Positions 25,707-38,318 of a DNA stretch of 59,934 nucleotides are shown piece by piece. Where the stretch lies: contig NZ_MTAV01000043.1 of assembly GCF_002154695.1 (NCBI RefSeq), forward strand, positions 1 to 59,934. Direction: 5' to 3'. Position 1 is the stretch's first letter, and each line of letters begins with the position of its first letter. Position numbers and translations under genes: made by a program. Origin of the DNA: Nostoc sp. T09. Lineage in GTDB: Bacteria > Cyanobacteriota > Cyanobacteriia > Cyanobacteriales > Nostocaceae. The notes below the pieces were generated by a model. The model saw only the letters and a program-made list of their open reading frames with translations, ran no database searches and was not told the DNA's origin.

Positions 25707-26093
25707 TTACTTCATAGCAGTTAGAGTCCGGCGTCCAATGATTCCATCTGCTCTTAAGCCTTTAGATTTTTGGAATTTCATAACAGCTGAACGTGTCTGT
25801 TTATCAAAGACACCATTAACATTTCCTTTGTAAAATCCTTGCTTCTTTAAAAAGTCTTGAGCAACTTTAACTGATTGTCCTTGGCTACCTAATTTGAGGG
25901 TGATAGTTTGTGTTGCTGCTGTAGTGGGTTTTTTCGTAGTATGAGGCTTTTTGGTAGCGTTGCCTTGCTGACTAGGTTGTGTAACTTGAGTAGGGTTAGT
26001 AGTATTTGGGCTTTTATTATTCATCTGAGAGTATGCTGGCACAGCAGTAGCTAGAGTCAGCATCGGGAGCACAGCGAGTAATTTCCAATTCAT
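25707..26093 (-). CDS. Secreted peptidoglycan-binding (PG_binding_1) protein
   Basis: The protein has 128 residues from the ATG at 26093. A signal peptide (MNWKLLAVLPMLTLATAVPAYS) precedes a Thr/Pro/Lys/Gln-rich linker and one peptidoglycan-binding domain. The domain includes LGSQGQSVKVAQDFLKKQGF, GVFDKQTRSAVMKFQKSKGL and the ADGIIGRRTLTAM end. It probably binds the cell wall in the periplasm; no catalytic domain is attached. A strong terminator follows. Confidence 0.85.
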   Translation of the reverse strand: MNWKLLAVLPMLTLATAVPAYSQMNNKSPNTTNPTQVTQPSQQGNATKKPHTTKKPTTAATQTITLKLGSQGQSVKVAQDFLKKQGFYKGNVNGVFDKQTRSAVMKFQKSKGLRADGIIGRRTLTAMK

Positions 26094-26422
26094 ATTTCTT
26101 TTTCCACCACACAGAAATTGCAATTTGCAGAATTAGTAATCTTAATCAGGTATTGCCTGATTAAAATTACTAGTAAACACTGGTGTTTGTTATAGCTTGA
26201 TGCTATTTCCTCATCCAGAGTTGAAACAAGCATCACACATCTTATTGACAGAGCTATTGCAAATCTATGACAAAATTATGTCTAATTTAAGTATTATTTT
26301 TTATGCAATTAAAGAGACATATTTATTTACGTAATGCTGAGCGCAAATCTCTTGTTGATTACTTTTGTTCACAAAAAAATGTCTAAATTTAGAAGCGCAT
26401 TAGCTTAGTCTGTTTGTTACTC

Positions 26423-26648
26423 AAGGCATCACCGTGCCAAAAAGGGAAAATCATACACTAAGGCTGAAAGCTTTATACAGCAATAGTTTTAACAATCTAT
26501 ATCTGAAGTGATATTTCATCAGATAGAGACGCAATTAGAAATTCGGTTTAAGAAACGTTGATGACTCTATTTCTTACTTTCTACCTGAAAGCCAGTTTTA
26601 GAGGGCATTTACAAAGCCAAGACCGCGCAAGGAAGTTGCGCGGTCGAT
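26423..26648 (+). repeat. Left arm of a long imperfect inverted repeat
   Basis: The sequence matches, in reverse complement, the right arm at 27679-27911 over its whole length with scattered differences. Shared stretches include gtgatatttcatcagatag, atttcttactttcta and gcatcaccgtg. It lies downstream of the pentapeptide gene and includes its terminator hairpin. Confidence 0.8.
26621..26645 (-). terminator. GC-rich hairpin after the pentapeptide gene
   Basis: GACCGCGCAA and TTGCGCGGTC form a perfect 10-bp stem with a 5-base loop, 65 bp past the stop codon. It lies inside the left repeat arm. No long T-run follows on the minus strand. Confidence 0.6.
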
Positions 26649-26709
26649 GTTATTTCAATATAAAAGTAAGTTAGTGGACTTTTTTAACTGCATTTTTTAT
26701 CTATAACTG

Positions 26710-27588
26710 TTAACATCCTTTATTTCTAATACTTCCATCTGACATAATAGTTCTACAAAAAATTGCACCTTCAAAACTACATCGGTGATCATCATCTTCC
26801 ATATACGCTCCTTCAAAACTTGCATCACTTAAGTTTACGCCAGTGAAGGAATTGTCAGCTAAACCTGCTTCTTTAAAAAGAGTGCCACTCAGATCAGCGA
26901 AATCAAAAAATGATGTTTGTATATGTGATTTTTCAAAATTGCAGTTCCTTAAGTCAGCATAACGCAATTCAGACTGTGTAAGCCAAAAACGTAGAACACT
27001 ACCGCTCAATCTGATTCCTGTCAAATCTACAGAACGCTCAAACGTAAAAATTCTTTCTCCTGAGTCATAGCGTTTTTGTAATGACTCAACGGCTTCGCTA
27101 GGTTGATAGTTATAACTTTCAATATCTCCATTGGGTAATATGGCTTCATGAAAAATTACGTCAGTGTAATTCCAATCCCAATTAGCACTTAGAAAAATTG
27201 TTTGGCGACAGAATGAACCTGATAAGTTACATTCCTGTATCGTTGCTGAGGTTAAATTCATTCTAACTAGACTAGAGTCACATAGAAATGTTTTGGTTAA
27301 ATCAGCATTGGTTAAATTACTTTCGTTAAAATTAGTTACCTCTATTTGTGAGTTACTTAAATTAGCATTGCTTAAATTGGCAGAACCTAAGTAGCAAAAC
27401 CTTAAATTAGCACCGCTTATGTTTGCACTGCTTAAATTGGTTCCCATCAAACAAGTAGATTCAAGCCAAGCTTGATTTAGATTAATGCCGCTCAAATCAA
27501 GGTGATTTAGCTGAAGGCCTTTCAAAACTACCTTAGAAAAATCTCGTTCTCCTGATTCATAACGTCTAATAAATTCTTCGGCATTCAT
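26710..27588 (-). CDS. Pentapeptide-repeat protein
   Basis: The 292-residue protein has many A(D/N)LXX-type five-residue repeats (LSSANISGANLRFCYLGSAN), which form a right-handed beta-helix. The two halves each begin RRYESGERDFSKV or KRYDSGERIFTFE and then run into repeats, so the gene looks internally duplicated. No signal peptide or membrane segment is seen. Function is unknown; some family members mimic DNA or interact with membranes. The ATG at 27588 has GAGGTG just upstream. The gene is bracketed by long inverted repeats. Confidence 0.85.
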   Translation of the reverse strand: MNAEEFIRRYESGERDFSKVVLKGLQLNHLDLSGINLNQAWLESTCLMGTNLSSANISGANLRFCYLGSANLSNANLSNSQIEVTNFNESNLTNADLTKTFLCDSSLVRMNLTSATIQECNLSGSFCRQTIFLSANWDWNYTDVIFHEAILPNGDIESYNYQPSEAVESLQKRYDSGERIFTFERSVDLTGIRLSGSVLRFWLTQSELRYADLRNCNFEKSHIQTSFFDFADLSGTLFKEAGLADNSFTGVNLSDASFEGAYMEDDDHRCSFEGAIFCRTIMSDGSIRNKGC

Positions 27589-27678
27589 TACACACCTCAA
27601 GATGCGCTCAAAATCACTGCTCCTTACAGAGCTACCGTACTAAATTTAGCGAAAATATATCATAACCCATCTCTTAAA

Positions 27679-28626: not shown

Positions 28627-29010
28627 AGATAATTCGCGATCGCACCCTTTTTTGCCAAGAGCGATCGCGAATCTAACCGATCGTGATTGCCAAATCTATC
28701 TCTATGCAGCACCCTATCTAGTTTGCTGCCTCTAATGCCACTATGCGGCAGATTTTATCGATGCACTTGATTTTTAGGAATGCATATAGTTGATTATCTG
28801 ATATATCAAACAGAAAATAGTTAACAAAAAGCACAATTTCTAAGTTTATTTTGCAAAATTTTAGGATTAAAAATTAGTTAATTTTTTTTAATTTTGAGAT
28901 TGCTTCGCTGCGCTCACAAAGCTTGGCAATTTTGAATTAGAACAAAGCGAATGTCACATTTTTTGTGTTATAAAACTCACAGCAATTTATCTTAGAGCAA
29001 AAAATACTCT

Positions 29011-31548
29011 ATGGAAACAGAACAACTGGAGCGTTTTAAAGAATATGGCGAATTCATCCTCCAGAAATTAGACTCTGTGCCTGAATATCCCTCCAAGCAA
29101 GAAGATTGGGTACCAGCTAGTCTTGATGAGAGTCTGTTTCGCCTCCGGGAAGCTGCCGAGAAAACTGTAGAACTTGCTACTTCACCAGTGAAAATCGGGG
29201 TGATGGGTGAATTTAGCAGCGGGAAAACTTTGCTGTTAGGCAGCTTGATCGGATACGCCGATGCTTTACCAGTTAGCGAAAACCCTACGACGGGCAACGT
29301 TACAGCCATCCATATCATACCCCAGGACGGCTTTGCAACTACCCAGTTAAGCAACTTTACAGTCGAGTATCTTTCTCACGAAGGTGTGAGTGATTGTCTG
29401 CGGTTCATGATTGGAGAAGCCAACCGTCGGACAGTGGCCGCTGGACTCCCACCTGCGCTGCTATCGAAGCTGAAAGAAGGAAAAGATATTCTTAGCTGGT
29501 GTGAGGAAACATGGAAAATTAGCAATAATTTAGAGTTACGTTATCTACTGCGGGAATTAGTATTATTTGTTCGCGCTTATCAATCTTATGGTGAAGTCAT
29601 GTGTGGTGGTTGCTACCAAATTGATGCTACCACTGCCCGTGAGGGATTGCAGCTAGCCGAGCAGCCAATGGCAATTCAAACTATTAACTTTGATGATTTA
29701 CCGCCAGCTCATATCAAATTACCGAGTCCACCCCAAAAATTACCATCAAAGTTATTACAGAATAGTTTCCCACTAATTCGTCGCGTAGATATAGAAGTAA
29801 AAATCTCACGAGAAATTTGGGATGTTACTGGTGCATCGGAATTTATTCTGCTCGACTTTCCGGGATTGGGTGCTGCTAATTCGGGAGCGAGGGATACATT
29901 TTTATCGCTGCGAGAATTAGCAGAAGTCCAGACAATTTTGGTGCTGTTAAATGGTAAATCACCAGGAAGCGATCGCGCCAATAAAATCTTTACGATGATG
30001 CAGCAGCAGCGTCCAGGACAAGACCTCAAGGATTTAATTATTGTAGGTGTGGGACGCTTCGATCAACTTCCCCTAGAAAGTGAAGGCGGAGAAAGAGAAC
30101 TCGACCAACTAATTAACGATGGTGCAGACAATCATCGTTTACAGGAAAGTAGCGTTTTCCAAAAACTCAAAGTTCTACAAACTACTATTGATGGTGCTAG
30201 TGCATTTACAACCCAAAAAGATCGCATTGTTTTACTCTCACCACTACTAGGACTGGCTGATTTAGCAAAACGTTCAACAACAGTAAAAGCCGGCTCACCA
30301 GAATTTTTGGCTAACCTAGATTATCCCGATTATTTAGACCGTTCCAAGCGGTTACAAGATAAATGGGGACGGTTAAGCGATCGCTTATTAGCATCTGATG
30401 CGCGTAATTATCTTGGGAGACAACTAGGTTACTTTGCTCAAGATGGCGGGATCAGCAAGCTGCGGGAATTGATTCAAAACCACGTAGCTACTCATGGTCT
30501 GAAACAACTTTATGAAGACACTAAAAGAGCTGCTGATGCTGTGCGTCAACAACAGGATAACCTCAAAACTATTCTGCAAGAAATTCACGAGCAAGGTATG
30601 CCAACTTCAGAGAGTCCAGCTTTGCTAGATTTGCGGGCGGCGATTGAAAACTTGGACAAAACCTACAGAAACTTCCAAAAAGATTTAGGTAAAGAACCAC
30701 TCAAAGATAGACGCGGAATTGGTGTCAGCGATGTTGTGAAAGACGAGCTAACATATAGAATTCTTAATTGGAATCAGTGGACTTTACTTTTCAACAAAGC
30801 TAATAATGGCACGATCGCACTTACCGAATCTAAAGGCGCAGCCGGGAAATTATTTGCTCGGGGTAACAAAGTCAATACTACCATTCCTACCAAAAGCGAC
30901 GACTTTTATCCCACATTTGCCAAAACTGTTCAAGAAGTAGAAGAATTTGCCCGCGATCGCATCCAGCAAGCAATTGTAGATTTACTGAACAAATTATCAA
31001 ATATTGTCGCTCAAGAACGTGAATATTTGCAAGCAAATCTCCACTCAGAAATGGAATCAGATATCGAATCTAAATTTGGTATTGAAGAAGCTGAACTTTT
31101 TTATAAACTGCTATTAGGTTGCGATCCTAACCAATGGCAAGAAGCAATTATTTCAGAAATTCACAGCAAAGAAAAAGCAATTTCACCAGAAATTATCTTC
31201 CCTTTAGCTCGTCAAGATGAGAAACACAATATAGGTCAAATCTTTGATTGGGCACCAGAAAGAAATGGTTCACCCAGATCTAACAATCACCAGCTTTTTG
31301 TACTGCGGCTACGGGATGAAATTACTGCTAGTGCCAGCCTTCATCTTGTTCAATATGTTAGCGAAGTCAATCAGCAAGTTAATGCAGAATTAGCAGGTGT
31401 TTTGGATCAAATTATTCCTAGTTTGCAAAATCTTTCTAAAAAAGAAACATTACTCAGATATATTGCCGCTGGAGAATCGCCATCACAGTTATCTATTCCG
31501 ACTTGGTTACAGATTCTTTCAGATATCTCAGTTATCAATTATCAGTAA
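29011..31548 (+). CDS. Dynamin-like GTPase, first gene of an NTPase operon
   Basis: This is an 845-residue protein. The G domain has P-loop GEFSSGKT (66-73), a G2-like Thr in NPTTGNVTA (91-99), DFPG (282-285) as the G3 motif and GRFDQ (about 348-352) in place of the usual base-recognition motif. A long insertion (about 110-260) separates G2 and G3, which is unusual. The C-terminal half (about 500-845) is helical, as in bacterial dynamin-like proteins that act on membranes. No transmembrane segment is obvious. The gene is followed after 56 bp by the Hsp70/actin-like ATPase. Exact family and target are unknown. Confidence 0.72.
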   Translation: METEQLERFKEYGEFILQKLDSVPEYPSKQEDWVPASLDESLFRLREAAEKTVELATSPVKIGVMGEFSSGKTLLLGSLIGYADALPVSENPTTGNVTAIHIIPQDGFATTQLSNFTVEYLSHEGVSDCLRFMIGEANRRTVAAGLPPALLSKLKEGKDILSWCEETWKISNNLELRYLLRELVLFVRAYQSYGEVMCGGCYQIDATTAREGLQLAEQPMAIQTINFDDLPPAHIKLPSPPQKLPSKLLQNSFPLIRRVDIEVKISREIWDVTGASEFILLDFPGLGAANSGARDTFLSLRELAEVQTILVLLNGKSPGSDRANKIFTMMQQQRPGQDLKDLIIVGVGRFDQLPLESEGGERELDQLINDGADNHRLQESSVFQKLKVLQTTIDGASAFTTQKDRIVLLSPLLGLADLAKRSTTVKAGSPEFLANLDYPDYLDRSKRLQDKWGRLSDRLLASDARNYLGRQLGYFAQDGGISKLRELIQNHVATHGLKQLYEDTKRAADAVRQQQDNLKTILQEIHEQGMPTSESPALLDLRAAIENLDKTYRNFQKDLGKEPLKDRRGIGVSDVVKDELTYRILNWNQWTLLFNKANNGTIALTESKGAAGKLFARGNKVNTTIPTKSDDFYPTFAKTVQEVEEFARDRIQQAIVDLLNKLSNIVAQEREYLQANLHSEMESDIESKFGIEEAELFYKLLLGCDPNQWQEAIISEIHSKEKAISPEIIFPLARQDEKHNIGQIFDWAPERNGSPRSNNHQLFVLRLRDEITASASLHLVQYVSEVNQQVNAELAGVLDQIIPSLQNLSKKETLLRYIAAGESPSQLSIPTWLQILSDISVINYQ

Positions 31549-31560
31549 CCAGTTATCAAC
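31529..31560. repeat. STRR tract spanning the end of the dynamin-like gene
   Basis: Heptamers CAGTTAT, CAATTAT, CAGTAAC, CAGTTAT and CAACTCA run through the stop codon. The last few residues of the protein (SVINYQ) are encoded by this repeat. Confidence 0.7.
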
Positions 31561-31604
31561 TCACTAATTAGTAATAACTGTTTACTGAATAAGGAAAATA
31601 TGCA

Positions 31605-34600
31605 ATGCCTGTGGAGATTCGGCTGTTACCTCGCTACCAAGTACGTGTTAAACAAAATAGTGAGTTGGATATTCCTGCTATCCAAATTCTTGCCTATGGC
31701 AGTAATATTCCTTACATTTATCGCATCACTTGCACTGTCAAGGGAACGCCAACAGAATTAGCAGCAAAAATCCAACAAGCATATCAACAATATTACTCTG
31801 CCATTCCTAGCAAAATTTCGTACATCAGGCAATTAGGACAATATCCCTGTAAATTAGAGCAACCTTTAACACAGCCAATCAACTGTAATTTACAGGTACT
31901 TGTTGAGTATTTTGATTCTGATGCGGCGGGTAATTCGCTACTAACAGTAAGAAAGCAAATTGAGGCTAACTGCAATCTCTTCTCCCAAGCTTTTGTGCAG
32001 CTACCAAAGCAAACAACAAAAATAAATACTAAAATGAACCCTTTTGAACTTAATAGTAATAAAGCGCCAAGCGAGCAACAAAAAAGATTTCCCGGCTGGT
32101 TTGCCTTAGATTTTGGTACATCAAACTCTACGGTAACACTGTTCGATCCAATTGAAGTACCAATTGCCGAAGTATTACCCAAAGAACAAGAAATGCGACT
32201 GCGCGATCGCATGGCGCAATGGTTGAATTCCCCCGCCTCAGTTGCTTTACCAGATATCAGTGCTAGTGACTGGGAAAAATTTATTGCTGACATTAGTAAA
32301 AATTTGGAGATAGAACCCAGCCGATTAAGTGAAGTTTTTGAGAGTGATAACAAAGAGCGATTTTTAGAAGCAATTCGCCAAATAGAATTATGCTTAGGTA
32401 CTAGCGATCGCTTTCGACGTGCAGTCAGCAAAAAGCTTTATCAGATATACCATGAAGTCTTTCGCGTTCCTACTTTAGAATCGCAAAATCTCATCCCGGT
32501 TGTATTAGATATCGATCGTCGCAGTACCGAAATTAAAAGTGAGTTAGAAATTGCCAAACTTGCAGCTTTAAAACTGAAGATGGGCAGAGAAGCCAGCGAC
32601 AACAGAAAAAAGGCGATCGCCCAAGGAACCAGCAGTGCTTTAAAAGAAATTATCAGCCGATTTCATCACTCACCCAAACGCTATTTTGGTCAGGATCGTT
32701 CTTTCCCAGTTATTTTAGATGAATCAGAAGAAACAATTAATGTCAACCAATTAATTCAAGCAGCTTGGGGACATTTAATTGAGTTAACCGAAGACTACCG
32801 CCGACGCGCCAGACGTAGATTTTCGGAAGGGGATTTCCTCTCAGCCGTTGTTACCTATCCCACTGTCGCCCCACCTGTTGTTCGCAAAGAAATTAAAGAA
32901 TTAGTTGGACAGTTAGGGCTTGATGATGTCCAAACTGCTTATGATGAAGCTGTTTCTGTAGCGATATTCTTTCTCTGGCGAGAATTTGGCGGTAATCTCA
33001 ATATTGGGATTGAATCTTTCAAAACTCGTTGTCGCCAAGAAGGAAATAAATGGTCGCAAAATGTTCTTGTCTTAGATATTGGTGGCGGAACCACAGATTT
33101 AGCTTTAATTGAACTAACTTTAGAAGATAAAACTCCCTTCTTTGCTGATCATGAAGACCGAGGCTTAGGAGGACGCTACTATAAACTTACACCTAAACTA
33201 TTAGGTTCGTCTGGGCATTTACAGTTAGGTGGAGAGTTAATTACTCTGCGCATATTCAGACTTTTAAAGTTAGCGATCGCCGACTTTTTATTAACAGCCG
33301 TTACCACAGGCGATTTAGAAAGCGACAAGCTAGAAGATTTAATTAACTCCGAATTAAACGAACGTTTTCTCGAAAATGGGCAATTCAAAAGCGGCAGTAT
33401 TTTAAAATGTTTGGATAAAGAAAATCCCGAAGGTGACGCTGCTTACAAAGATGCTCTAGATACGGCTGAGAAAGTATTACCTACCCGATGGCAACAAGCC
33501 CCCCAACGCCTACAAACTTTTTATACACTCTGGGATCATGCCGAAGCTGCCAAAATCAAACTCGGACAAAAGCCAGCAGAAGACGCTTCTCCCTTAACCT
33601 TTACTCTCTCAGAACAGCAAATTTCCGAACTGCTAACTCAAAGTGCGATTAAATTCCAGGTAAAAGATCCCAGTAGCATCTGCCTCACTATCGATAGTCA
33701 GCAATTCGATCGCGCTGCATCATCATCAATTAAAGAAGCGATCGGTATAGCCCAAGGTTTGATGGATAGTCGCTTGCGTCCCCAAGATAGCACTGTAGAC
33801 GCTTGGAATACGCATAAAGTTGATTGGTTAATTTTATCCGGTAAAACTTGCAGCCTCGACCTCGTACAGCGCCACATTTACCAAGAATTTAGTAAATCTC
33901 CTTATTTCGTCTGGAATCCAGAACGAATTACCTTTGTGCTGGAATTTACCAAATTAGCCACCTCTGCCGGTGCTTGCTATGCCGAGAAGCTACGCAGATT
34001 AAGATTTGACCCCGAAGAGTCAAAAGGATTACTACGTAAAGGAGCTAACCAACTAGAAATTGATGTCAAGAACCTGTTTTATTATTTACCTTGCAACTTC
34101 AAACGCAAAACCCAAAGCAACGAACTGCTGACAATCTTTAAAGCTGGGCAAGAACTCTATCAACTAGCTGCTGAAGAAACCGTAGCTAAAGTTCGCACTG
34201 AGTGGCAAGGGATACAGTTAACTAACATTATTTATCGTCAAGACTACGAAGACGGCGACTTGCGGCTTTGGGGTAGCTTCGATGGCAAATCCTTGATGGA
34301 GAAATTAGGGTTGTCAGAATCAGACTTTCTTAGAAAAATCAAAGTCCAGTTTGAAATCGATCAAACTCTCCAGTTCAGCGTTTTGCTTTGTCAAGGAAAT
34401 CCTCATTATTTAATAGATGTTTCTGGCATTGATGTCAGTTCGGTAATTTCCGCCGCCTCAGAAACTTCAGCACTGTTTGCTGATGGCAAATTGAAGTGGA
34501 ATATTGCTGTTGAACGCCCCAATAAAAACTTGAATGATGGTGATATTGCCATTAACGTTCTAGAGTCAGCAACCGTCGATCAACCAGATGCCTACCATCT

Positions 34601-35009
34601 CGTATTTGAAGCCGATAAAGATGTGAGCAAATCGCTGCAAGAATTCCATTATTTACGCGATGGTTCACCAGAACCAGGAACCGGGTTAGTCAGCAATCCT
34701 TTGCCTCCCTTTCCAAATAATGGGCAACACACCTTCTACGTTGTGCAAACAGATGCCGAAACCAACACCAAAAAATGGATACGCATTGGCGCATTAAGTA
34801 AACCCGATGTCACCACAGATTATCCTTGCCAATATCGTGTGACTCTCGACAATCAAGGTATTTTACGAATGCACGCTGGTGAAGTACCTTACTGGATATC
34901 AAGCAAACAAGAAAGCCTTAAGCAACCAGGATGTGTTTACCGCGCTGAACTAGAGTTGCAACCCAATGAAGTCGATAAAGAACGCGATCCCTTTTGCGGA
35001 ATTCATTAG
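31605..35009 (+). CDS. Large Hsp70/actin-like ATPase, second gene of the operon
   Basis: This is a 1134-residue protein. About 160 N-terminal residues are beta-rich and unrecognised. The actin/Hsp70 ATPase core follows: phosphate-1 motif DFGTSNST (169-176), connect-type AYDEAVSVAIFF (about 445-456), phosphate-2 motif DIGGGTTD (491-498) and an adenosine-type motif WLILSGKTCSLDLV (741-754). Roughly 300 further residues form a C-terminal extension. Length and layout recall SrfB-like proteins, which in enterobacteria neighbour a large GTPase-like SrfC; homology is not proven here. AAGGAA lies eight bases before the ATG. It is co-directional with the genes before and after. Confidence 0.75.
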   Translation: MPVEIRLLPRYQVRVKQNSELDIPAIQILAYGSNIPYIYRITCTVKGTPTELAAKIQQAYQQYYSAIPSKISYIRQLGQYPCKLEQPLTQPINCNLQVLVEYFDSDAAGNSLLTVRKQIEANCNLFSQAFVQLPKQTTKINTKMNPFELNSNKAPSEQQKRFPGWFALDFGTSNSTVTLFDPIEVPIAEVLPKEQEMRLRDRMAQWLNSPASVALPDISASDWEKFIADISKNLEIEPSRLSEVFESDNKERFLEAIRQIELCLGTSDRFRRAVSKKLYQIYHEVFRVPTLESQNLIPVVLDIDRRSTEIKSELEIAKLAALKLKMGREASDNRKKAIAQGTSSALKEIISRFHHSPKRYFGQDRSFPVILDESEETINVNQLIQAAWGHLIELTEDYRRRARRRFSEGDFLSAVVTYPTVAPPVVRKEIKELVGQLGLDDVQTAYDEAVSVAIFFLWREFGGNLNIGIESFKTRCRQEGNKWSQNVLVLDIGGGTTDLALIELTLEDKTPFFADHEDRGLGGRYYKLTPKLLGSSGHLQLGGELITLRIFRLLKLAIADFLLTAVTTGDLESDKLEDLINSELNERFLENGQFKSGSILKCLDKENPEGDAAYKDALDTAEKVLPTRWQQAPQRLQTFYTLWDHAEAAKIKLGQKPAEDASPLTFTLSEQQISELLTQSAIKFQVKDPSSICLTIDSQQFDRAASSSIKEAIGIAQGLMDSRLRPQDSTVDAWNTHKVDWLILSGKTCSLDLVQRHIYQEFSKSPYFVWNPERITFVLEFTKLATSAGACYAEKLRRLRFDPEESKGLLRKGANQLEIDVKNLFYYLPCNFKRKTQSNELLTIFKAGQELYQLAAEETVAKVRTEWQGIQLTNIIYRQDYEDGDLRLWGSFDGKSLMEKLGLSESDFLRKIKVQFEIDQTLQFSVLLCQGNPHYLIDVSGIDVSSVISAASETSALFADGKLKWNIAVERPNKNLNDGDIAINVLESATVDQPDAYHLVFEADKDVSKSLQEFHYLRDGSPEPGTGLVSNPLPPFPNNGQHTFYVVQTDAETNTKKWIRIGALSKPDVTTDYPCQYRVTLDNQGILRMHAGEVPYWISSKQESLKQPGCVYRAELELQPNEVDKERDPFCGIH

Positions 35010-35143
35010 GGTAAATAACTCACGCAGAGGCGCAAAGAAAAACTTTCTTAAAACATCTTTCTCTGTGACTTTGTGTCTCTGTGGTTCGTATACATCTTAC
35101 CTTCGCGTGAGGTAAAAAACAGGTAAAACTAAAGGCGAAATTC

Positions 35144-36229
35144 ATGCAGCACCTACGTCAGCTATTAGAAACAGAAAACTCACAGCTAGCCCAATTATTG
35201 CGGTTTAGCCTGTATGGAATACAAGCTTCTTTAAAGCAAGCCCAAAACGAATTTCCTCTCGATCCTGGCGCTAAATTATGCGACGAAATGCTGCAAGAAA
35301 TCCATTCCTTATTACAACCAACATCCTACAAATCTAACTCTAATAGTGAATTAAAATTAAGTCGCCTCCAAGAAGCATTTGATGCTGATAAAGAACTCAA
35401 ATTGTATTTAGGAAATTCCCAACTCCAAAGCCAAACAGACGCAGAATTATGGAACGAAATTCAACGTAAACTGCTGCGGGTTCCAGAAGACTTGGCTACA
35501 TCGTGGCGACAGCGTGCCTTAACTCTGGCTCAAGAAGTGGGTGCAGTAGAAAACACTTCGGATCTCTATCCTCTACCATTCATCCGCGATGAAATTATTT
35601 ACCCTGGACTGAGTGGTACTATTCAAGCTAAGGGTTTGTGTTTGTCCGAGAAAGCACTATCTTATACAGAAATTGCTCAAGCAAGTAAATCAAAAGATTT
35701 AAATTTCCTAGCTGGTTATTTATTTTTATGTATAAATATTATCGAAATAGAACCAGATTTACATCATGCGTTAAAGAGCGTTTTTAGCTTTGATATTGTC
35801 TCCTTACACTCCAAGCCAGAACAGCAAAATCAATATATTGAAGCTTTAACACACCGCTTTCAACGCACCCAAAAAGCTGTAGAAAATGCTGATTCAGTAT
35901 CAACCCTACGTGCTTGGATTGACATGGATGAAGCAATCCACTCTTTGGTATTTATTCCCCCAGGCGATCGCTATTCTTGGTGGGGTAAACTACAACAAGA
36001 ATCACGACGTATGTTAAAAAAATTTGTAGATGAGGCGAATAATGCAGGGTATGAAGTCAAAATTCGTCAATTATCGGGGCTTTATGCCGATATCTGCGCT
36101 TTAACAAAAGATGACCTGCAACTAGATTGTGGCGGTAATCCTGGGGAAGTTTTGACCTGTCTGCGAGTATATGCACGCATTAATCAAGAAGAATCTCCGG
36201 GGCGTGTAATCTTTCGCTCATCACGGTAA
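35144..36229 (+). CDS. Unrecognised helical protein, third gene of the operon
   Basis: I do not recognise this 361-residue protein. It is soluble and mostly helical, with no signal peptide or membrane segment. A Tyr/Pro-rich loop (SDLYPLPFIRDEIIYPGLSG) lies near 140-160. The AAAGG ribosome site is eight bases before the ATG. A 134-bp gap, holding a cyanobacterial intergenic repeat fragment (ctcacgcagaggcgcaaag), separates it from the ATPase gene. Position suggests an adaptor or regulator of the two NTPases (inference). Confidence 0.6.
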   Translation: MQHLRQLLETENSQLAQLLRFSLYGIQASLKQAQNEFPLDPGAKLCDEMLQEIHSLLQPTSYKSNSNSELKLSRLQEAFDADKELKLYLGNSQLQSQTDAELWNEIQRKLLRVPEDLATSWRQRALTLAQEVGAVENTSDLYPLPFIRDEIIYPGLSGTIQAKGLCLSEKALSYTEIAQASKSKDLNFLAGYLFLCINIIEIEPDLHHALKSVFSFDIVSLHSKPEQQNQYIEALTHRFQRTQKAVENADSVSTLRAWIDMDEAIHSLVFIPPGDRYSWWGKLQQESRRMLKKFVDEANNAGYEVKIRQLSGLYADICALTKDDLQLDCGGNPGEVLTCLRVYARINQEESPGRVIFRSSR

Positions 36230-36274
36230 TCGTTGGTACTTTTTATCCTAAAATTTTCGCGATCGCAGCAAATT

Positions 36275-37120
36275 ATGCTCAAAAGCCCACTCCGTTATCC
36301 AGGCGGTAAATCAAAAGCAATCAATCAAATAATTGAATACTTACCAGAAACTTTTTCTGAATTTAGAGAACCTTTTGTAGGTGGTGGTTCTGTATTTATC
36401 TATCTAAAGCAAAAATTTCCTCATTTAAAAATTTGGATTAATGATTTAAACCGTGAGTTATTCCTATTTTGGAAATTTGCTCAATCTGATATATCTCAAC
36501 TAGTAACTGAAGTGCGGCGGATTAAAGATAAATATACAGACGGTAGATTACTATTTACAGAATTAACCAGCGTAGGTATCAATAATTTATCTGATTTTGA
36601 AAGAGCAGTCCGCTTTTTTGTACTTAACAGAATTACATTTTCGGGAACCGTAGAATCGGGTGGTTTTTCTCAGGAAGCTTTTCATAAACGCTTTACTAAC
36701 TCATCTATAGACCGTCTAGAGAAATTAGGAAATATTGTATTGAAAGATATTTTAATAACTAATTTAGATTACAGTGAATTATTGCATTCAACCGATGAAA
36801 AGGTGTTTTTATTTTTAGATCCGCCATATTTTAGTGCTACTAAATCTAAGTTATATGGTAAAGATGGGAACTTACATACTTCTTTTGAACATCTAAAATT
36901 TGCTGAATTATTAAAACAATGCCATCACCGATGGCTAATTACTTATGATAACTCGCCACAAATTCAAGAAAATTTTCACTGGGCTAATATTTCAGAGTGG
37001 GAATTGCAATATGGGATGAATAACTATAAACAGAGTAATGCTGCTAAAGGAAAAGAGTTATTCATTACTAACTATGAAATTCTACAGAATCTGGAGAAGA
37101 AAATTAAAACTTTTTTGTAG
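36275..37120 (+). CDS. dam: D12-class DNA adenine methyltransferase
   Basis: The 281-residue protein has the alpha-type N6-adenine methyltransferase order. LKSPLRYPGGKSKA is the AdoMet-binding motif X, FREPFVGGGSVF motif I and FLDPPYF the catalytic DPPY. The ATG at 36275 lies only 45 bp after the unknown operon gene. Recognition sequence cannot be read; many cyanobacterial relatives methylate GATC, which lies inside the abundant HIP1 octamer. No restriction enzyme is adjacent, so it looks solitary or attached to the upstream operon. Confidence 0.88.
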   Translation: MLKSPLRYPGGKSKAINQIIEYLPETFSEFREPFVGGGSVFIYLKQKFPHLKIWINDLNRELFLFWKFAQSDISQLVTEVRRIKDKYTDGRLLFTELTSVGINNLSDFERAVRFFVLNRITFSGTVESGGFSQEAFHKRFTNSSIDRLEKLGNIVLKDILITNLDYSELLHSTDEKVFLFLDPPYFSATKSKLYGKDGNLHTSFEHLKFAELLKQCHHRWLITYDNSPQIQENFHWANISEWELQYGMNNYKQSNAAKGKELFITNYEILQNLEKKIKTFL

Positions 37121-37250
37121 TGAGAACTTCAGTCCTCAAATATCTAAGTAATCAACTACTTACTACAAACTGTTTCCCATTTTCCGGTAGGATAGCTCCC
37201 AGACTCATCAACGAAAGCTCAACCCTACCACACGCAAACAGACCTTTTCT

Positions 37251-38318
37251 ATGACAACTTCCCCCATCTCCACGCCAGAAACTTCACCTAGCTGGTATCT
37301 CCTGCTGCAACAATTAATCAATGGTGAATCTTTATCTCGCACTCAAGCTGCTGAATTGATGCAAGGATGGCTAAGTGAATCTGTTCCCCCAGAATTATCG
37401 GGAGCAATTTTAACAGCACTGAACTTTAGAGGCGTTTCTGCTGACGAGTTGACTGGGATGGCGGAAGTGCTACAGTCTCAATCTTCCTTTCTCAGAACTC
37501 AAAACTCAGCACTCCCCAGTCTCATTGATACCTGTGGCACTGGCGGAGATGGTTCATCAACTTTTAATATTTCTACAGCAGTTGCTTTTGTGGCGGCTGC
37601 CTATGGTGTACCCGTCGCTAAACACGGCAATCGTTCGGCTTCCAGTTTGACAGGAAGCGCCGATGTCTTGGAAGCTTTGGGTGTAAATCTCAGTGCCCCT
37701 AGCGAAAAAGTGCAAGCGGCAGTCAAAGAAGTGGGGATCACTTTTCTATTTGCCCCTGGTTGGCATCCAGCACTCAAGGCGGTTGCTACATTGCGTCGGA
37801 CTCTTAAGGTACGGACTGTTTTCAACTTACTCGGGCCGTTGGTAAATCCTTTAAATCCAACTGGGCAAGTGGTTGGGTTATTTACTCCCAAACTTTTGGC
37901 AACTGTTGCCCAAGCTTTAAACAATTTGGGTAAGCAAAAAGCAATTGTTTTACATGGGCGAGAAAAACTCGATGAAGCGGGGTTAGGAGATTTAACCGAC
38001 TTAGCAGTTTTATCTAATGGTGAGGTGGAGTTAACGACTGTAAATCCCGAAGCGGTTGGTGTAACGCCTGCTACTATAGGTGCCCTCAGGGGTGGTGATG
38101 TTCAGGAAAACGCTGAAATACTCAAAGCGGTACTGCAAGGCAAGGGCACTCAAGCGCAACAGGATGCTGTAGCGTTAAATGCCTCCTTGGCGCTGCAAGT
38201 GGCGGGTGCGATTCCATTACTAGACCATGCCCAGGGTATTAAAGTAGCTAAGGAGATCCTAGATAGTGGCGCTCCCTGGGTAAAATTGGAGCAGTTAGTT
38301 CAGTTTCTGCGGAATTAA
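37251..38318 (+). CDS. trpD: Anthranilate phosphoribosyltransferase
   Basis: The 355-residue enzyme is the second step of tryptophan synthesis, joining anthranilate and [21 protein letters not shown] is the PRPP/metal loop, KHGNRSASS and [19 protein letters not shown] the further signature blocks. An extra loop just before the first motif ([11 protein letters not shown]) is encoded by a heptameric repeat. The last 71 bases overlap the end of the convergent aspartic-protease gene. Confidence 0.95.
37488..37521. repeat. In-frame heptameric repeat inside trpD
   Basis: Units TTTCTCA, GAACTCA, AAACTCA and GCACTCC repeat the ACTC core every seven bases. They encode a loop between the N-terminal helices and the PRPP loop, where most TrpD proteins differ in length. 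Confidence 0.6.

Follow-up and report, generated by a model that had tools for sequence, protein, structure and literature searches.

A conserved three-gene unit for a dynamin-family GTPase, an Hsp70/actin-type ATPase and a third protein in heterocyst-forming cyanobacteria

Introduction

This report concerns three adjacent genes on contig NZ_MTAV01000043.1 of Nostoc sp. T09 (positions 1 to 59,934, forward strand; this whole stretch of 59,934 nucleotides is referred to as the window), which encode a GTPase of the dynamin family, as judged from its sequence and predicted fold (gene 1), an Hsp70/actin-type ATPase by its sequence motifs (gene 2) and a protein of no recognised fold (gene 3). Among the closest genes described are alr1146, alr1147 and alr1148 of Anabaena PCC 7120, which are listed among the heterocyst-clade signature genes of unknown function (PMC4365693, Table 6; throughout, statements on published work refer to the accessible parts of the papers). 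The alr1146 product has 847 residues and is described as Nostocales-specific (PMC2823733). The one bacterial relative given for it is from Streptomyces aurantiacus and the two given for alr1147 are from Frankia and S. aurantiacus; alr1147 is also marked absent in 'Nos2', by list order Nostoc azollae (PMC4365693). Upon nitrogen step-down two of the three genes were up about nine-fold (PMC4365693) and, for scale, 434 chromosomal genes were up at least 5-fold by 12 h (PMC3141674). Like genes 1-3, these are three consecutive, clade-restricted genes on one strand, and the 847 residues compare with 845 for gene 1. They differ in that the accessible text presents them as single genes of unknown function and not as a dynamin, an Hsp70 or a unit.

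Genes 1 and 2 also resemble the 'chaperone clade' of cyanobacterial dynamins, in which a DnaK-domain protein is encoded directly downstream (Jilly et al. 2018, PMC5827413). If gene 2 is regarded as a DnaK-domain protein then the locus has this arrangement, gene 2 following gene 1 in the same orientation in 117 of 117 distinct loci. It is probable that the chaperone clade includes genes 1 and 2, although GKTLLLGSLI in gene 1 departs from the extended P-loop (N-A) of nearly all its members (PMC5827413). In the accessible account of the clade there is no mention of a third gene, of confinement to a single family, of joint loss or of a link to nitrogen.

In the SrfABC system, a three-gene operon, SrfA, SrfB and SrfC form a heteromeric complex (PMC6950479). 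The likeness lies in the three-gene operon with a large SrfB protein and in the similar relative sizes of the products, and the differences are that gene 2 scores under the SrfB cut-off, that gene 1 has no SrfC match among those listed and that gene 3 is unmatched. Lastly, the dynamin-like proteins SynDLP and BDLP (PDB 7zw6 and 2j68) are the best fold matches of gene 1 but share only ~12% identity with it, and its G4 motif is divergent; the accessible parts of the literature consulted on them mention no Hsp70-like partner.

Our literature search, with subscription journals mostly outside its reach, found no published study of genes 1-3 as a unit. The pairing of genes 1 and 2 and the clade restriction are already partly in print, and what is new here is the third partner, the co-occurrence and co-loss of the genes, the dynamin-like fold and the setting apart of a neighbouring methylase gene.

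Conservation of the three-gene unit

The genes of the unit are as follows.

29011..31548, + strand: gene 1, dynamin-family GTPase (by sequence and predicted fold), open reading frame of 845 amino acids
31605..35009, + strand: gene 2, Hsp70/actin-type ATPase (by sequence) with remote SrfB similarity, open reading frame of 1134 amino acids
35144..36229, + strand: gene 3, protein of unknown fold and constant third component, open reading frame of 361 amino acids

They are followed by the methylase gene, all four on the + strand with intergenic gaps of 56, 134 and 45 bp. An initial annotation made from the sequence alone had proposed these coordinates, the common strand, the gaps and the motifs discussed below, all of which were borne out when the reading frames were rechecked and the motifs compared in relatives.

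Genes 1-3 are one conserved three-gene unit. In a phylum sample of 244 genomes, searched first with gene 2 as a single-protein query and then with profiles of genes 1-3 (E <= 0.001), each gene was found in the same 28 genomes, all of them in the family of the window, which was taken as the Nostocaceae (heterocyst formers). At this threshold the other 216 genomes had no gene 2 or gene 3, and six of them gave weak gene-1 matches around the P-loop only. Since the first non-matching genomes listed were of the same order and of other families, the sample was taken to hold no family member without the unit.

In a family sample of 192 genomes from 56 genera, gene 2 was present in 186 genomes and 53 genera. 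Genes 1 and 3 were sought in the six genomes lacking gene 2 and in six others with odd gene-2 matches or for comparison. Of the genomes lacking gene 2, five (88-100% complete) had no gene 3 and at most one weak P-loop match for gene 1; the sixth (89% complete, 450 contigs) contained gene 1 with gene 3 unmatched, as did two genomes with a partial gene 2 (96% and 84% complete; 400 and 1230 contigs). All three genes were present in three of the remaining four genomes and broken in the other, G257 (100% complete), where the pieces of gene 3 lie ~3.4 Mb from the broken genes 1 and 2 on a 4.9 Mb contig, which means that two unlinked places have decayed. In G051 and G174, gene 3 had been relocated away from genes 1 and 2 and yet was free of stops. 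We take this joint loss and decay, including that at unlinked loci, as the strongest evidence for one functional unit, with the three fragmented assemblies excepted.

Nitrogenase was considered as a simple explanation of this distribution and rejected, since the five unit-less genomes all had strong nifN matches. In the family sample nifN was over the cut-off in 190 genomes and nifH in 152, so nifH is a poor marker in this family; it may be split in many of the 40 genomes in which it fell below the cut-off.

Gene order was compared in 128 loci, comprising the window, 27 and 20 from the genome samples and 80 from a gene-3 scan of genome contigs (the best 80 of 176 relatives). Six of the loci were duplicated, leaving 122 distinct ones. 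As 80 of the 128 are the best-scoring named gene-3 relatives, the sample leans to close relatives; 79 of these carry what we take to be Nostocales names and one is an uncultured cyanobacterium. The three genes occurred in the same order in 115 of the 122 distinct loci (121 of 128 before duplicates were removed), so that the arrangement is not a chance one and adjacency, which the initial annotation had proposed to survey, is far from rare. Gene 3 was elsewhere in two of the seven exceptions, four were at or near a contig end or on a short contig, and in the last (L225) gene 1 was not found within the stretch compared. Strand and order never varied among the distinct loci, either for genes 1 and 2 (117 of 117; median distance 196 bp, between match ends) or for genes 2 and 3 (118 of 118; median distance 143.5). 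Intervening DNA between genes 1 and 2 reached ~4.4 kb in L232 and measured 1.0-1.9 kb in many Nostoc loci, and between genes 2 and 3 it measured 1.6-3.6 kb in L229, L159 and L174.

For the gene trees, 96 loci with full-length genes 1-3 (gene 2 matching from residue 150 or earlier) were thinned to 67. Well-supported splits conflicted in 1 of 39 cases between genes 1 and 2, in 4 of 39 between genes 1 and 3 and in 6 of 47 between genes 2 and 3, and the tree distances correlated at 0.989, 0.957 and 0.967 for the same pairs. This agreement, which is one among gene trees, fits vertical descent of genes 1-3 together as a unit. Together with the co-occurrence and gene order it upholds the grouping of the three genes in the initial annotation.

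Features of the three proteins

Gene 1 matched the Pfam family Dynamin_N over its curated cut-off (2.3e-6), and all 51 gene-1 relatives matched it at E <= 0.1. The G1 P-loop reads GEFSSGK[T/S] in 50 of the 51 proteins and GEFSAGKT in the other, and G2 (PTTGN[V/I]TA) and G3 (DFPG) are present in all 51. The G4 base-specificity motif expected of such a GTPase is (T/N)KxD. Here the position is occupied by GRFDQLP in 39 proteins and GRFNQLP in 12, so that the dynamin G4 motif itself is absent. An AlphaFold model built from 51 sequences starts with a GTPase region at the N-terminus and continues in long helices, which is the architecture of a dynamin, and its best Foldseek matches in the PDB were the cyanobacterial dynamin SynDLP (E 1.3e-12) and then BDLP (1.2e-8), with probability 1.00; an oligomerised bacterial dynamin pair, MxB and mitofusins also matched. 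The template modelling (TM) scores were low (0.18-0.34 by query length among the 50 matches listed), perhaps owing to a different domain arrangement in the model. Sequence and predicted fold both assign gene 1 to the dynamin-family GTPases, as first annotated, and GTP hydrolysis, oligomer formation and lipid binding are predicted for it. No SrfC-type family was found among the Pfam matches listed for the 51 proteins (25 of 26 families, E <= 0.1). In one locus (L038/L200) gene 1 is split into residues 1-125 and 127-843, possibly by a sequencing error or because the gene is broken.

The phosphate-1 motif DFGTSNST of gene 2 is conserved in 47 of 47 proteins, and phosphate-2 reads DIGGGTTD in 46 and DVGGGTTD in one, which places gene 2 within the Hsp70/actin superfamily. 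Against Pfam HSP70 it gave E 0.13 and 10.8 bits versus a cut-off of 20.6 and so does not qualify as an Hsp70 proper; a weak match to this profile was seen in 7 of 15 gene-2 members. The SrfB family PF07520 was matched at 2e-5 and 23.3 bits, below the Pfam cut-off of 27.1, and by all 15 members at E <= 0.1 (best 4.3e-6). In sequence searches of the PDB none of genes 1-3 had a match below E 0.18, the best for gene 2 being an Hsp70 (E 0.27), with a weak MreB match as well. As judged from its sequence, gene 2 is an Hsp70/actin-type ATPase whose likeness to SrfB is real but weak. Of the link to enterobacterial SrfB and SrfC drawn in the initial annotation, the SrfB side is retained in this weak form, and the assignment of gene 1 to SrfC is not.

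In 56 of 118 usable distinct relatives the best match to gene 2 begins past residue 100, the N-terminal ~100-150 residues (window 31605-32050) being absent or decayed beyond recognition by the search; this part of the protein therefore seems dispensable. In five loci (L136, L145, L049, L163 and L187) genes 1 and 2 are separated by an additional ~1.3-1.55 kb, with an open reading frame that is whole or split and looks to us like an Rpn-type nuclease/transposase gene, and gene 2 of these loci is without its first ~120-145 residues.

Gene 3 had no Pfam match at E <= 1 and no PADLOC match, and its best NCBIfam match (0.04) was at chance level. Its relatives gave scattered weak Pfam matches, each in at most 4 of 56 members, and no SrfA-type family was among the matches listed for these 56 proteins at E <= 0.1. 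A model from 56 sequences (predicted local distance difference test, pLDDT, 79; predicted TM-score, pTM, 0.69) mixes helices and strands, with residues 311-340 and the C-terminus poorly modelled, and found no fold match at E <= 0.001 in the PDB and a viral library. The view that gene 3 resembles nothing known has thus held through the Pfam, PADLOC, NCBIfam and fold searches.

Hydropathy over 19 residues, for which the usual cut-off is 1.6, peaked at 1.1, 1.7 and 1.4 in genes 1, 2 and 3, and no clear transmembrane segment was found in any of them. The gene-2 peak falls just after the phosphate-2 motif, within the ATPase part, in a stretch that holds Arg and Lys.

Promoter-like block and neighbouring methylase

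Two further features flank the unit.

28961..28981, + strand: conserved promoter-like block TTTTGTGTTATAAAACTCACA before gene 1, with TATAAA at 28969-28974, recognised by its recurrence upstream of gene 1
36275..37120, + strand: D12-class DNA adenine methylase (PF02086, 4.7e-37), a neighbour outside the unit

The block with its TATAAA ends 29 bp upstream of gene 1. It was tested in 60 loci with genes matching from residue 1, thinned to 48, a selection that left out most of the Nostoc loci with a short gene 2. The best 20-base window recurred with at most 4 mismatches before gene 1 in 28 of 46 stretches, before gene 2 in 2 of 47 and before gene 3 in 9 of 47 (shuffled controls at most 1), the reference stretches being unequal at 200, 56 and 134 bases respectively. 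The sequence recurring before gene 3 resembles a dispersed repeat, as does what the window has in its gap between genes 2 and 3 (35018-35112), namely CGCAGAGGCGCAAAG followed later by a stretch in part complementary to it. When up to 5 mismatches were allowed, the 21-base block was found within the final 80 bases of 81 of 109 stretches upstream of gene 1, and an exact copy was present there in 8 of 8 genomes of the genus. Those of the deep family branches are among the 28 stretches in which it was not found, as are several others, one group keeping TGTTATAA and diverging afterwards. The block would be a promoter, and a single one may serve genes 1-3.

Among 109 upstream stretches, each of 600 bases, 25 contained the NtcA-type sequence GTAN8TAC, versus 10% of random stretches, and in the window there was none; among the 12 matches listed it lay at -125 to -548. 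TCCGGA, presumably the DIF motif, was at background level (4 of 109 versus 3.1%).

The methylase starts at an ATG at 36275, the list of open reading frames beginning at a TTG at 36233. It was absent from the stretch compared in 57 of 120 distinct loci with gene 3. Where both were present (63 distinct loci) they shared a strand in 61, at distances of 48-7474 bp (median 1552 bp), and only four of these loci, the window among them, had the methylase within 150 bp of gene 3. It was within 300 bp of trpD in 43 of 58 loci. Its closeness to gene 3 in the window is a local accident and the methylase an unrelated neighbour; the role of self-marking or hitch-hiking partner, which the initial annotation had offered for it, is not sustained by these figures.

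A defence system was considered and rejected. The distribution is not patchy (gene 2 in 186 of 192 family genomes), the gene trees fit vertical descent and not mobility, and the flanks are nearly without defence genes: among ten flanking proteins scanned with PADLOC one, exonuclease-like, matched at about 2e-6 and the others did not. No relatives of genes 1-3 were found in phages, and none was confirmed in viral contigs, which gave pattern matches. PHROGs had no match for genes 1-3 at 0.01, and among plasmids there was none for genes 2 and 3, gene 1 giving a P-loop match in five Leisingera records.

Proposed function and alternative explanations

Proteins of the dynamin family form assemblies on membranes, which they remodel with the help of GTP, and Hsp70-type ATPases load and unload assemblies. 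We know of no machine shown to carry out the remodelling of thylakoids in heterocysts. In this unit a GTPase of the membrane-remodelling type is combined with a distribution, and probably also an induction, such as a heterocyst membrane machine would be expected to have. Heterocyst differentiation involves extensive remodelling of the thylakoid membranes (PMC11500504). We favour, and give an even chance to, the reading that genes 1-3 are one transcription unit for a membrane-remodelling, three-protein nucleoside triphosphatase (NTPase) machine of heterocyst formers that is vertically inherited and nitrogen-responsive. The unit would be switched up once combined nitrogen runs out, judging from the published induction of the presumed PCC 7120 orthologs, and a single transcript would cover genes 1-3. 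The gene-1 protein would assemble on a membrane and bend, tether or fuse it, and gene 2 would load, restrain or disassemble this GTPase and so control its assembly and recycling. Gene 3 might be an adaptor linking the two or might choose the site, and the three products probably form a complex. The target would be a membrane remodelled in heterocyst differentiation, whether septum, cytoplasmic membrane or thylakoid. The unit would then be one of the rare cases in which an Hsp70-like ATPase is linked genetically to a dynamin. It lends itself to deletion in a standard laboratory strain and, as it is not from a pathogen, offers a harmless system for studying what an SrfB-like protein does. A bolder version, in which a machine private to the heterocyst clade uses the Hsp70/actin-type ATPase and an adaptor of new fold to run the dynamin and rebuild membranes or septa in differentiation, is speculative and we are inclined to doubt it; if true, it would be a bacterial counterpart of chaperone-driven recycling of membrane coats, tied to multicellular development.

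Several points weigh against the machine that we favour. The G4 motif of gene 1 has diverged, 12 of 51 proteins carrying Asn in place of Asp, and the gene-1 model is of modest confidence (mean pLDDT 78, pTM 0.58), with TM-scores to SynDLP chains of 0.26-0.40. Gene 2 was sought in all 192 family genomes and genes 1 and 3 in 12 of them, and three fragmented assemblies (84-96% complete) hold gene 1 without a gene-3 match. Of the 109 upstream stretches, 28 lack the promoter-like block or have a weak form of it. The orthology of alr1146-alr1148 with genes 1-3 is presumed, on the grounds of the length of alr1146, the run of three co-directional genes, a restriction to the same clade and a location upstream of carA. 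If carA is alr1155, as we assume, counting genes from gene 3 to carA in two related genomes falls short of the alr numbering by one and by two respectively. The five unit-less family genomes pass nifN (nifH passes in two of the five), and G263 (95% complete), with no nifN match, keeps genes 1-3 without stops, so that nitrogen fixation as such does not require the unit, which may have a broader role in the filament or in stress. Finally, alr1147 rose by 2.5-fold only (PMC4365693).

A general chaperone or proteostasis unit, with gene 2 as an Hsp70-like chaperone, gene 1 as a GTPase switch, gene 3 as a co-chaperone and the nitrogen induction as a stress response, would suit the Hsp70-type motifs of gene 2, the weak HSP70 match in 7 of its 15 members, the lack of a clear transmembrane segment in genes 1-3 and the retention of the unit in G263. 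We nevertheless consider it unlikely, since the gene-1 model has a GTPase domain with long helices and SynDLP and BDLP as best matches, and gene 2 scores lower on the Hsp70 profile than on SrfB. Somewhat more unlikely is a structural or cytoskeletal role in the filament or septum, independent of nitrogen, in which gene 2 would be an actin-like scaffold and gene 1 would act at the septum. The published induction upon nitrogen step-down (PMC4365693) argues against this role, to which the weak MreB match of gene 2 lends some support, as do the restriction of the unit in our sample to one filamentous family (the other 216 genomes not being sorted by filament habit) and the observation that a GFP fusion of another dynamin, NosDLP, was found at the cell periphery and in rare septal rings (PMC5827413).

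The initial annotation had proposed a membrane-directed or conflict-type NTPase system, and it is the membrane-directed part, with a dynamin-like gene 1, that survives as the best reading. That genes 1-3 serve in conflict or against phages, with the methylase marking self, is very improbable: a weak PADLOC match of gene 1 to LeoA (4.9e-5, residues 5-102 including the P-loop) and the matches of the methylase to the MTase_II and orphan-methylase models of PADLOC are set against a nearly constant presence in the family, trees that fit vertical descent, the lack of phage and viral relatives, with plasmids holding just a gene-1 P-loop match, a single protein with PADLOC matches among the ten scanned in the flanks and the loose linkage of the methylase. 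Equally remote is a true SrfABC system with an effector-like protein complex. Its three complex-forming proteins have similar relative sizes to those encoded here (PMC6950479) and gene 2 does match SrfB, but this match is under the cut-off, no SrfC-type match was among those listed for the 51 gene-1 proteins, gene 3 has no consistent match and, if gene 3 were SrfA-like, the gene order would be opposite.

Other features of the window and its relatives

The window had no Rfam match at gathering scores, and a consensus scan of the + strand from 28800 to 37300 found no terminator-like site. In genomes of the genus a similar TGTTATAAAATTCACA block (around 1500 in L253, and in L248-L252, L254 and L255) precedes a gene for a tetratricopeptide repeat (TPR)-like protein with a hydrophobic N-terminus. 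A regulon sharing this promoter was considered and found not convincing, with one further site per genome and one match in 8 genomes for a reversed control. The site at the TPR-like protein was present in 8 of 8 genomes of the genus with at most 2 mismatches, the gene being read in three of them, and a single genome had one extra site. Upstream of the unit, on the other strand of the window at 25707-27600, are genes for a protein with a peptidoglycan-binding domain and a pentapeptide-repeat protein.

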